Shown one piece after another: positions 1 through 64,000 of a stretch of 64,000 nt of DNA. Position 1 is the first letter of the stretch. Every line of letters starts with the position of its first letter. The notes under the pieces were generated by a model. That model was not told the origin of the DNA, searched no databases, and saw only the letters and a list, made by a program, of their open reading frames with translations. Both the position numbers and the translations under genes were made by a program. Origin of the DNA: Terrimicrobium sacchariphilum (GTDB lineage Bacteria; Verrucomicrobiota; Verrucomicrobiia; Chthoniobacterales; Terrimicrobiaceae); assembly GCF_001613545.1 (NCBI RefSeq), contig NZ_BDCO01000002.1:3596001-3660000 (forward strand). Direction: 5' to 3'.

Positions 1-1652
1 TCCGCCACGATCTGAGCTGCACGGCGGCGAAGCTTCTCATTGGTCGGCTTCAAACAGGACATAGAATTCCCGTCCACCCTTCCCAGGCGCACCATCACAC
101 AGGTGGAAAGGATATTCAGGGCGACCTTCGTGGCGGTGCCTGCCTTGAGACGGGTCGAGCCGGTGATGATTTCCGGCCCGGTAGGCAGATCGATCTCGAC
201 ATCGGCATGCCCGACGGCACGGTCCCTCCGGGGATTGCAGGTGAGAAATATCGTGCCCGCTCCGAGACGCCTCGCCTCGGCCAGAGCGCCTAATACGTAG
301 GGAGTGCGACCGCTTGCCGTGATCCCGCAGACCACATCGGAATCCCGCACTCCGCGATCCCTCAATGCAAGTGCTCCGGCCTCGCGGGAATCTTCCGCGC
401 TTTCTGAACTCCGCATCACTGCCGCCACGCCTCCAGCGAGGACTCCCTGCACCAGTTCCGGCTCAACGCCAAAGGTCGGCGGCATTTCACTCGCATCGAG
501 CAGCCCGAGCCGACCGCTCGTACCAGCTCCGATGTAAAACAACCTCCCACCGGCTTGAAGCGAGGCGGTCAGGAGATCCACCGCAATGGCGAGTTCCGGC
601 ACACAGTGGCGGACGGCCTCCTCAACGGCCCGCTCCTCCGTGGCAAAAAGCTCCACGAGTTTTCGCGTGGGGAGGAGACCAAGATCCGCCGAACGCGGGT
701 TGGGCTGCTCGGTTACCGCCTGGGCCACCTCGGATTCCGCGACGGTCTGGACGCGGACGGGGTCTGGCATGTGCCCCGCCGCGAGATAGACGGATCCCAT
801 GCTTCCCGGTGTCGTGCAGACATCGATATCGGCGGTAGGCCAAGCCTTGCGAAACTCTTGCTCGAACAGGTCTCTGTATATTGGCTGGCCAGTAAAAACC
901 CCTCCTTGCAGGCGCACCACCGGAGAGTGAAACTCCAACCTCCGCGCCACGCTGCCGGCCAGTCGTGCCAGTGCCGCCGCGCCCCGCCGCAAGATGCGCG
1001 CTACCGAAAACTCTTCCGCATGGCGGAAGACGACCGGCGTGATCCGTGCGAGGTCACTCTTGTGCGCGGCCTGCGCCCATACGGTGAGTTCTGCCAGCGT
1101 ATTGATACCGAGAAGCTGAAGCGTCTCGGCAGCCAGCGGGGTGATTTCCCTCGCGGTATCGTAGTCGTACAGGATACGTCGGAGGGCATTGATGGCGATG
1201 TCGTACCCGCCGCCCGAGTCTCCCAGGAGATGCCCCCAGCCGCCCGCCCGATCCTCGATCCCGCCAGCGCGCCCAGTTACCGCCGAACCCGTACCCGCGA
1301 TCACAGCGATGCCATCGTGATCCTGAAAGGCGGCGGCAAAACCGGACTCCCGGTCACTCCCGACCCGCACTGTCGCATGCGGCCAGACGGAATCCGCCAC
1401 CTCGCGCAAAACCTCGCGATCGCGCTCCGTCGCACATCCGGCCAGAAATACCCCCACCCGGCTCGCGTCCGCCGGCATCACAGAGAGAAGATGCCGGAGC
1501 TCCTCCAGGCTCAGGAGCCTCAGGCTGCCCGGACCGAGTACGCCTTCGGTGATCGAAACGAGCGACTCGTTTTCTTTCTCACAGAGAATCCACCGGGTTT
1601 TTGTCGCGCCGCCCTCGATTCCGAGGATTAAATTCTTGGAAAACGCGCCCAC
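1..1652 (-). CDS. murQ: MurK-MurQ fusion: N-acetylglucosamine/MurNAc kinase plus MurNAc-6-phosphate etherase (3' end cut by window)
   Basis: The frame is open from a GTG at 1652 to the window edge (550 residues visible). Residues about 1-300 are a BadF/BadG-type sugar kinase: the phosphate-1 loop GIEGGATKT lies near residue 11, followed by GTGSAVTG and GDSGGGYDI. From about residue 312 the protein becomes MurQ: the SIS sugar-phosphate loop GAGTSGRLG, DASEMPPTFG (first catalytic Glu) and SAEDSRE (second Glu), then ASGRTPYV and the signature GSTRLKAGTATK. About 50 C-terminal MurQ residues are missing. MurQ removes the lactyl ether from MurNAc-6-P to give GlcNAc-6-P, and the kinase half would supply the phosphorylated sugar, so one polypeptide could do two consecutive peptidoglycan-recycling steps. 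The start is uncertain because no clear ribosome-binding site is seen and the frame stays open upstream. Confidence 0.93.
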   Translation of the reverse strand, partial: MGAFSKNLILGIEGGATKTRWILCEKENESLVSITEGVLGPGSLRLLSLEELRHLLSVMPADASRVGVFLAGCATERDREVLREVADSVWPHATVRVGSDRESGFAAAFQDHDGIAVIAGTGSAVTGRAGGIEDRAGGWGHLLGDSGGGYDIAINALRRILYDYDTAREITPLAAETLQLLGINTLAELTVWAQAAHKSDLARITPVVFRHAEEFSVARILRRGAAALARLAGSVARRLEFHSPVVRLQGGVFTGQPIYRDLFEQEFRKAWPTADIDVCTTPGSMGSVYLAAGHMPDPVRVQTVAESEVAQAVTEQPNPRSADLGLLPTRKLVELFATEERAVEEAVRHCVPELAIAVDLLTASLQAGGRLFYIGAGTSGRLGLLDASEMPPTFGVEPELVQGVLAGGVAAVMRSSESAEDSREAGALALRDRGVRDSDVVCGITASGRTPYVLGALAEARRLGAGTIFLTCNPRRDRAVGHADVEIDLPTGPEIITGSTRLKAGTATKVALNILSTCVMVRLGRVDGNSMSCLKPTNEKLRRRAAQIVA

Positions 1653-1673
1653 GCCGTAAATGTATCTGCGAAG

Positions 1674-4065
<2,392 letters not shown>

Positions 4066-61930: not shown

Positions 61931-61970
61931 GGGCGTTTGATAAACGTTCAATCGGCTGGTGACAACGGCA

Positions 61971-62321
61971 ATGAATTTCAAACAAATGGTCTCCTGGGCG
62001 GAGCAGATTTCCGCGGAAACGCTAAAGGAACTCCCCCTGGAAGTACGCACGGCTTTGGATGAGGTGCCGATTTTCTTCGAGGCGCTTCCCTCCGAAAAAG
62101 ATATCGACGAGGGAATCGCCCCCGACACACTCGGTCTCTTTGATCCGGGTCCGGATTCCGCACCCATGGCGTGTATCCGGCTCTGGTTGGAGAATATCTG
62201 GGATGAGGCGGAAGAGGCTGGCACCACGTTTGAGGAGGAAGTGCGAATCACCCTGCTTCACGAGATCGGCCACCTTCTGGGCTGGGATGAGGATGAGGTG
62301 GAGGATCGCGGCCTCGCCTAG
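61971..62321 (+). CDS. Small zincin-like metallopeptidase family protein (DUF1025)
   Basis: A 116-residue protein containing the zinc motif HEIGHLLGWDEDEVEDRGL near residue 96 (HExxH plus extra acidic and Gly residues), the signature of the DUF1025/YjaZ-like small metallopeptidase family often found next to other genes in bacteria. ATG at 61971; a GTG 12 bp upstream is possible. It is divergent from zwf at 40 bp. Activity has to be inferred. Confidence 0.85.
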   Translation: MNFKQMVSWAEQISAETLKELPLEVRTALDEVPIFFEALPSEKDIDEGIAPDTLGLFDPGPDSAPMACIRLWLENIWDEAEEAGTTFEEEVRITLLHEIGHLLGWDEDEVEDRGLA

Positions 62322-62373: not shown

Positions 62374-64000
62374 ATGGAAACCTCCCCTAGGGCGCCGCTG
62401 AGGGCGATGCTGGCCAGGGTGTCGCCGGATGACCTGGTGATCTACGCGAATGCTTCGCTATGCCAATATCTCGGAGTTTCCAAGCGCGACCTCGTAGGCA
62501 CCCCCCTCGACGTGCTGGCCGCTCGATGCCAGGGCGAAATCTCCACCTGCTTCGTCCGCGACGTCAGTCACCGCACCAGCAACCACCTCGTCACCGATGC
62601 CGAGGGGCGGGTGTTTGAAGCAAAGGTCTACAGCGAGGGCGGTGTGCTCGATATCGTGCTCGACGAGGTTTCCAGCACGGAATTTGTCGGCAGTGATCTG
62701 CGCTATGTCAGCGGCACGCCTTTTGAATCGCTCGAAGAGGATGAATTGCGCACCGCTCGCCTCCCGGAGCGCCGTTACATCACCATCGGTCACACCCAGC
62801 TCCGCGGTCTTTCCGAGGTGAGCGAACGCAGCTCGGCCATGGACGTTCGCCTCCTGGTCAATTGCTTCATCGAGGAGGCCGGAGATGCCATTTGGGAGTC
62901 CGGCTGCACCGTGGGCGAGATCCAGGGCGGCTCAATCCTCGGCATCTACGGAGCACCGCGCTATTTCGCCGACCACCCGCTGCGCGCCATCCGGGCGGCC
63001 TGTGAGCAGATGGCCAAGATGTCACGCATTCACGGAGAGTTCCTCCGCCAGGGCAAGGAGCTTCCTCCATGTTCCTGCGGACTCTGGACCGGAGATACCC
63101 TCGTCGGGTCCGTCGGCAACTCGTACACCCAGCACTACACCGCTCTCGGGAAGCCTGTGGAGCTCGCTCGCCGGCTCTCCGACCTTGCCCGGCCGGGCGA
63201 AACCATCCTTCCCGAGCATACTCTCACACATCTCCTACGGGTATTGCCTCCTGGATGGCAGCACGTCCGCGCGGAGAACTCTACGGAACCTGATCTCAGT
63301 GATTTCCAGTGGGTCGGCGATGAGGTGGCTCCCCTACCGGAAAACCTGAAGCGTATCGTCTATCTCGTCGGTCCGGACGTGCAAAACAATGCTTCCAACG
63401 CCGAATACTACTTCGATTATCTCTGGTCATTCCGCGTGCCAGGTCGCGACCAGACCGTTCCCATCCTGCGCGTCGTGCGACCGCAGGAGGTTGGCGACTC
63501 CCTTGAGCTGCGCGACGACAACGTCATCTCCCAGTCCGTCCAGACCGTCGGAAAATATAAACTCATCGAGGTTGTCGGCACCGGCGGCATGGGCAAGGTC
63601 TGGCGAGGTATCGATCGATTCGGCAACTCCGTCGCGATCAAGGTCCTTCACACCGCGGAATCCGTCACCGAGGCGCAGCTGAAGCGCTTTCGTCGCGAAG
63701 CTGAGGTGATGGCCCGTCTGCCTCATCGCAATATCTGCCGTGTGTATGAGATGAACGAATTCGAGGGAATCCACTACCTCGCCATGGAGTTCGTCAATGG
63801 TCTTCCGCTCTACGATCTGCTGTACGAGAGCACACCGACCGATTCCGAAAAGACGCCCAGCCGTGAGCACGTCGATCTGCCCGCGCTCATTTCGTCCATT
63901 CGGTCTGCCAAGTCGCTGCGCGACAGCCTGCCACCGCCAGAAGGGGAGAATGGGCCCGAAGTCAGCCGCCCCAAGGACACCCGCATCCTCCCTGTCGAGC
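62374..64000 (+). CDS. PAS-pseudocyclase-Ser/Thr kinase (3' end cut by window)
   Basis: 542 residues are visible. A PAS-like N-terminus (about 12-120) is followed by a class-III cyclase-like domain (about 135-330), but the first metal-binding Asp position is Gln142 (HTQLRG instead of FADIRG) and the second is Gly186 (IQGGSILGIYG instead of GD). YTALGKPVELARRL keeps part of the third motif. So it is probably a degenerate regulatory cyclase. A Ser/Thr kinase follows: GTGGMGKVW glycine loop near 402-410, Lys423 in AIKVL and AMEFVNG hinge. The kinase then has a long charged insert where the catalytic loop is expected; the window ends before it. Confidence 0.88.
   Translation, partial: METSPRAPLRAMLARVSPDDLVIYANASLCQYLGVSKRDLVGTPLDVLAARCQGEISTCFVRDVSHRTSNHLVTDAEGRVFEAKVYSEGGVLDIVLDEVSSTEFVGSDLRYVSGTPFESLEEDELRTARLPERRYITIGHTQLRGLSEVSERSSAMDVRLLVNCFIEEAGDAIWESGCTVGEIQGGSILGIYGAPRYFADHPLRAIRAACEQMAKMSRIHGEFLRQGKELPPCSCGLWTGDTLVGSVGNSYTQHYTALGKPVELARRLSDLARPGETILPEHTLTHLLRVLPPGWQHVRAENSTEPDLSDFQWVGDEVAPLPENLKRIVYLVGPDVQNNASNAEYYFDYLWSFRVPGRDQTVPILRVVRPQEVGDSLELRDDNVISQSVQTVGKYKLIEVVGTGGMGKVWRGIDRFGNSVAIKVLHTAESVTEAQLKRFRREAEVMARLPHRNICRVYEMNEFEGIHYLAMEFVNGLPLYDLLYESTPTDSEKTPSREHVDLPALISSIRSAKSLRDSLPPPEGENGPEVSRPKDTRILPVE

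Follow-up and report, generated by a model that had tools for sequence, protein, structure and literature searches.

A degenerate class III cyclase domain in front of a seemingly active Ser/Thr kinase in Terrimicrobium sacchariphilum belongs to a small PAS-cyclase-kinase family with three states

The stretch of DNA analysed here, a window of 64,000 nucleotides (G000:C2:3596001-3660000) from the genome of Terrimicrobium sacchariphilum NM-5T (Verrucomicrobiota; 4,751,807 bases in three contigs), ends in a gene that raises the question of what a nucleotide cyclase domain without its catalytic residues does in front of a protein kinase. The draft genome of this strain has been published (PMC5532833). 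An open reading frame from 62371/62374, with M1 at the ATG at 62374, stays open to the end of the window, and a preliminary description of the window had proposed that it encodes a degenerate cyclase domain fused upstream of a Ser/Thr kinase. Read on a 15-kb piece of the host contig, the full protein comprises 1248 aa and has this order, with complete kinase motifs: from the N- to the C-terminus, a PAS domain, a helical linker, the class III cyclase domain (CHD), a Hanks Ser/Thr kinase, one TM helix, a coiled coil and LRR (Table 1). The TM helix is read from a single hydrophobic segment after the kinase (about 732-755) and is followed by a charged coiled-coil-like stretch and then the LRR region, which presumably lies in the periplasm, with the PAS domain and the CHD in the cytoplasm. 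A search of 58 relatives yielded, together with the window protein, 14 proteins that share this architecture. The other 13 are 32-96% identical over the N-terminal 387 residues; 13 of the 14 come from the host family (Terrimicrobiaceae), and the remaining one (G026) belongs to a different family in the order. PAS_4 and PAS_9 match 11 and nine of the 14, respectively (best 9.5e-6), and the PAS region of an AF2 model shows a PAS-like order of alpha/beta elements.

Table 1. Features of the PAS-pseudocyclase-kinase gene within the window.
Feature	Residues	Window position	Strand	Evidence or remark
5' part of PAS-pseudocyclase-kinase gene	542 codons	62374..64000	+	~2.1 kb more past window (L002:3375-7121)
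PAS-like domain	~8-100	62395..62673	+	Pfam matches among orthologues; AF2 element order
Helical linker, PAS to CHD	~103-130	62680..62763	+	AF2 model helices 96-105, 115-122
Degenerate class III CHD	~129-371	62758..63486	+	Profile match 2w01; structural match CyaB 3r5g
First metal Asp position	Q142	62797..62799	+	Gln (5) or Arg (9) in 14/14 orthologues; Asp in 6/6 intact relatives
Substrate Lys position	E182	62917..62919	+	Lys in 0/14 orthologues, 6/6 intact relatives
Second metal Asp position	G186	62929..62931	+	Asp in 2/14 orthologues, 6/6 intact relatives
Base-recognition position	K260	63151..63153	+	Ser/Ala in intact relatives; variable in 14 orthologues
Substrate Asn position	E263 (VELARRL)	63160..63162	+	Asn in 0/14 orthologues, 6/6 intact relatives
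Transition-state Arg position	R267	63172..63174	+	Kept in window protein, 6/14 orthologues
Kinase N-lobe, up to just before catalytic loop	393-542	63550..64000	+	PF00069, PknB matches
Charged insert, ~54 residues	~485-538	63826..63987	+	Between hinge/alpha-D and alpha-E of kinase

A gene for a zincin-like metallopeptidase (PF06262, 1.2e-12; window 61959-62321, plus strand) lies ~50 bp upstream of the kinase gene, and is itself overlapped by a zwf ORF on the opposite strand, whose start was probably called too early. Among the loci compared, the kinase gene has the zincin-like gene beside it in the three Terrimicrobium genomes alone, and osmC/purB downstream of it in these and in G006 alone. 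None of these neighbours was accepted as an operon partner, since adjacency is limited to a few genomes; several relatives lie on short contigs, and few flanks are comparable.

The fold of a class III cyclase is retained in the CHD. Taken alone, the CHD of the window protein scores 17.0 bits, below the Pfam Guanylate_cyc cut-off of 21.9 bits; the same family is matched by 13 of the 14 orthologues (best 8e-8), and a profile built from the orthologues finds Cya2 (2w01) at E 8e-24 and CyaC at 3e-19. The AF2 model, which covers residues 8-385 and was built from 15 sequences (model number + 7 = protein residue), has a mean pLDDT of 86.9 and aligns by VIA-align with CyaB (3r5g) at Z 21.9 over 192 residues and 2.1 Å, and with CyaC (1wc0) at Z about 21.8, while Foldseek matches the CHD model to 2w01 at E 4.6e-15. 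These profile, Foldseek and Z-score matches rule out a chance likeness to cyclases, and the model confidence and the match to CyaB bear out the earlier view that the fold is preserved around the lost residues.

With CyaB, CyaC and Cya2 the window protein thus shares the CHD fold and the layout of motifs, but all except one of the catalytic and substrate residues are replaced and the output domain is a kinase. The catalytic positions were set by alignment to Cya2 2w01, CyaC and intact relatives. In the preliminary description Gln142 and Gly186 had been placed at the positions of the metal-binding Asp residues and the Glu of VELARRL at that of the substrate Asn; the alignment puts the first two exactly there, with the numbers unchanged, and Glu263 at the Asn position, and it adds the replacement of the substrate Lys by Glu182 and Lys260 at the base-recognition position. 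Asp occurs at the second-Asp position in L035 and L043, and Gly, Ser or Glu in the remaining orthologues. From the set that defines an active class III cyclase (two Asp, Lys, Asn, Arg), R267 is the sole residue kept in the window protein, and the full set is found in none of the 14. Class III CHDs act as dimers, and the host genome has at least three other CHDs whose catalytic residues read intact (L106, L108 and L109; L107 did not align), so that the domain might be pictured as a C2-like half that pairs with another, active cyclase and couples kinase and cyclase output. A half of this type has to supply Lys, Asn and Arg, but Lys and Asn are absent from all 14 and Arg persists in 6/14, and no conserved neighbour gene is a cyclase among the few relatives with comparable flanks. 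Because the residues that such a half must supply are lost, a partnership of this kind is quite improbable.

A second degenerate CHD is encoded elsewhere in the host genome, in a protein of 420 aa (L110:1222-2484, minus strand; G000:C3 near 96684-97175) that combines N-terminal hydrophobic segments, probably in the membrane, with a CHD carrying Glu at both metal-Asp positions and at the Lys and Asn positions (VCEVQ, DECTGES, GPAVEF). ORFs of ~420-440 aa that match its CHD region, without alignment by residue, occur in many relatives and may represent a widespread pseudocyclase.

The CHD of the kinase fusion is under purifying selection. For CHD residues 129-290, pairwise dN/dS by the Nei-Gojobori method comes to 0.023-0.056 when the three Terrimicrobium genomes are compared with one another and to 0.026-0.155 for three further pairs; the values are rough, as dS approaches saturation in part of the comparisons. 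In every pair measured the CHD value is lower than that of the TM/coiled-coil and C-terminal regions. With this selection, and with a frame that is open in 14 genomes, a local sequencing error or a pseudogene is ruled out. The same two observations (dN/dS 0.02-0.16; open frames) argue against a decaying remnant that serves as a mere linker, as do the invariant fold motifs GAPR..DH..R and the retention of the PAS domain and the CHD in all 14 proteins (deleted in 0/14); a remnant would fit the drift of the catalytic residues and the faster evolution of the CHD compared with the kinase (mean pairwise identity 0.50 vs 0.71-0.76), but is on balance very improbable. The mean identity of the six catalytic positions is 0.30 against a CHD mean of 0.50 in the 14 orthologues (resampling P 0.03), compared with 1.00 for D, K, D, N and R against a CHD mean of 0.59 in six intact proteins, a set that was recognised by these residues themselves, so that only its contrast with the 14 orthologues is informative. 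Together with the dN/dS of the domain, the low identity at the catalytic positions indicates that the fold has stayed under constraint while the active site has been freed from part of it, which speaks against conserved nucleotide binding in this site. This weakens the earlier suggestion that the CHD binds a nucleotide. In its explicit form, in which the domain binds, for example, ATP, GTP or a cyclic nucleotide metal-free and senses energy state or a second messenger on behalf of the kinase, that suggestion can draw on the retained fold, on Arg267 in the window protein and on the Asp at the second-Asp position in 2/14. It is unlikely in view of the substrate contacts, which are unconserved (Lys to E, Q, P or S; Asn to E, D, V or Q; Arg kept in 6/14), and of catalytic positions that vary more than the CHD average. 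To judge from these residues the former active site is likewise unlikely to hold a nucleotide ligand; the ligand of the CHD could be a partner protein.

At the other end of the fusion, the kinase (residues ~393-710; PF00069, 145.7 bits; PknB match, E 9.5e-44) appears to be active as far as its motifs can tell. The Gly-rich loop (GTGGMGKV, 402), K423, E442, H565-R566-D567, N572, D585-F586-G587 and PE614-615 supply the Gly loop, beta3 Lys, alphaC Glu, HRD, DFG and APE elements of a Hanks-type kinase, and the motifs listed from K423 to PE614-615 are invariant across the 14 orthologues. HRD567, N572, DFG585 and PE614-615 are encoded past the window end, where extension of the sequence to the HRD and DFG loops, proposed earlier as a check, recovers both. 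A non-functional kinase had been named as an observation that would count against the proposal; with the motif set complete and not degraded, a kinase that is dead as well is ruled out at the level of motifs. The long charged insert, thought unusual, is real (18/54 residues charged) and, in an AF2 model of the close orthologue L050, forms one helix (~502-517) with disorder on either side. It is missing from the host kinases L099, L100 and L101, which aligned over both lobes (L103, aligned over the N-lobe only, is uninformative), but is general in this kinase family. Its occurrence in relatives with intact cyclases makes the insert a trait of the family as a whole and rules it out as a special mark of the dead cyclase.

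The family to which the pseudocyclase-kinase belongs is small and bounded, being found in 14/384 sampled genomes of the class at E 1e-60 and in 17/213 genomes of the order at E 1e-40; the first of these counts agrees with the impression that a PAS-pseudocyclase-kinase arrangement is uncommon. Beyond the preliminary description, this family proves to have three states. L061 (MAG nzgw509), L063, L079 (G088) and L080 (G177) have the PAS-CHD-kinase order and keep the Asp, Lys, Asp, Asn and Arg together with the kinase motifs; the ORFs of L063 and G728 are equal in length (1295 aa). L081 (G264) gives an intact PAS-cyclase-kinase reading with a frame break near the CHD end, either real or an assembly error, its two parts (L081:2974-4320 and 1259-3706, minus strand) having been read separately and never joined. 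L082 (G334; L082:1977-6644, minus strand) keeps all five cyclase residues, whereas its kinase retains the beta3 Lys but no longer has the Gly loop, alphaC Glu, HRD (HPA instead) or DFG (VFR instead); by its sequence it is a pseudokinase-cyclase of the same family. The CHD of L092 (G675; L092:412-2463, minus strand) has kept the first Asp and the Arg and lost the Lys, second Asp and Asn; its kinase motifs are intact, its frame stops before any TM helix and the PAS part of the profile gave no match. Relatives with both Asp residues, which had been named as evidence against a dead cyclase, thus exist among distant PAS-CHD-kinase proteins, while all 14 close orthologues are without the catalytic set. 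The intact relatives therefore mark which way the family has changed, and the claim stands.

The 14 degenerate proteins are split from the rest in unrooted trees of the kinase (SH-aLRT/UFBoot 93.5/90), the CHD (99.9/100) and the core (100/100), and in the kinase tree the split is retained when L092 and L081 are added (96.6/99), reaching 100/100 without the fast-evolving L082. The kinase tree places L092 among the intact proteins, its exact position there being weakly supported, so that its loss is probably separate. The most parsimonious reading of these sequences would be a bifunctional ancestor, as class III cyclases in general carry the residues seen in the intact proteins. From it, the cyclase would have been lost once before the 14 diverged and again, in part, in L092, and the kinase once, in L082; because the trees are unrooted, the ancestral state rests on parsimony.

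We think it rather likely, on the whole, that such a bifunctional PAS-cyclase-kinase gave rise to a membrane-anchored pseudocyclase-kinase in which the CHD now serves as a dimerising signal relay to the kinase. The gene product would be a membrane-anchored signalling kinase with cytoplasmic PAS and CHD ahead of the complete kinase, and the CHD would derive from a working class III cyclase whose catalytic residues were lost in this lineage while selection kept the fold. Dimerisation, the direction of the signal and the effect on the kinase are taken from what is general to class III cyclases and to kinases of the PknB type; by this analogy the CHD may dimerise as class III CHDs do and hand on a signal from the PAS domain or the membrane side through its C-terminal linker. 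The relay could then set the proximity or orientation of two kinase domains and so control trans-autophosphorylation. We infer regulation of the kinase by the CHD on this basis. The role of the dead domain can be tested in this one small family, whose three states (both enzymes intact, a dead cyclase, a dead kinase) form a natural series for studying how a pseudoenzyme domain controls an active partner. A cyclase-derived input module would be added to those of bacterial Ser/Thr kinases, and a cyclase annotation in this group may belong to a protein that produces no cyclic nucleotide. The open-licence literature searched yielded no description of a PAS-pseudocyclase-kinase family, or of pseudocyclases, cyclase-kinase fusions or Verrucomicrobia kinases of this kind.

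Among known systems, Hanks kinases of the PknB/PknA/StkP type have in common with the window protein complete motifs, a single TM after the kinase and a sensor-like C-terminal region; the window protein differs in its additional N-terminal PAS-CHD part, in the ~54-aa insert before alpha-E and in LRR instead of PASTA. Membership of the PASTA kinases (PknB/Stk1, NF033483) was rejected at 246.7 bits against a cut-off of 450, with the best stretch in the kinase region. The TOMM kinase/cyclase fusion (TIGR03903) likewise unites kinase and cyclase-type domains in one protein, but there the kinase domain leads, whereas in the window protein the CHD leads and is dead; the match of 101.4 bits, best in the kinase, stays below the cut-off of 705.75 bits. 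In receptor guanylyl cyclases (GC-A, GC-C) a dead kinase-homology domain regulates an active cyclase (see PMC9672810, PMC10400071). The window protein has both the domain order and the dead partner reversed relative to this pseudokinase followed by an active cyclase, and would be its mirror image if the CHD does regulate the kinase, a likeness of arrangement in which whole-protein homology is not claimed. That the Verrucomicrobiota hold a PAS-cyclase-kinase family with reciprocal loss, the cyclase having died in the lineage of the window protein and, by the kinase tree, separately in G675, and the kinase in G334, and that the dead CHD has become a conserved allosteric switch of the kinase, mirroring the receptor guanylyl cyclases, is in our judgement evenly balanced.
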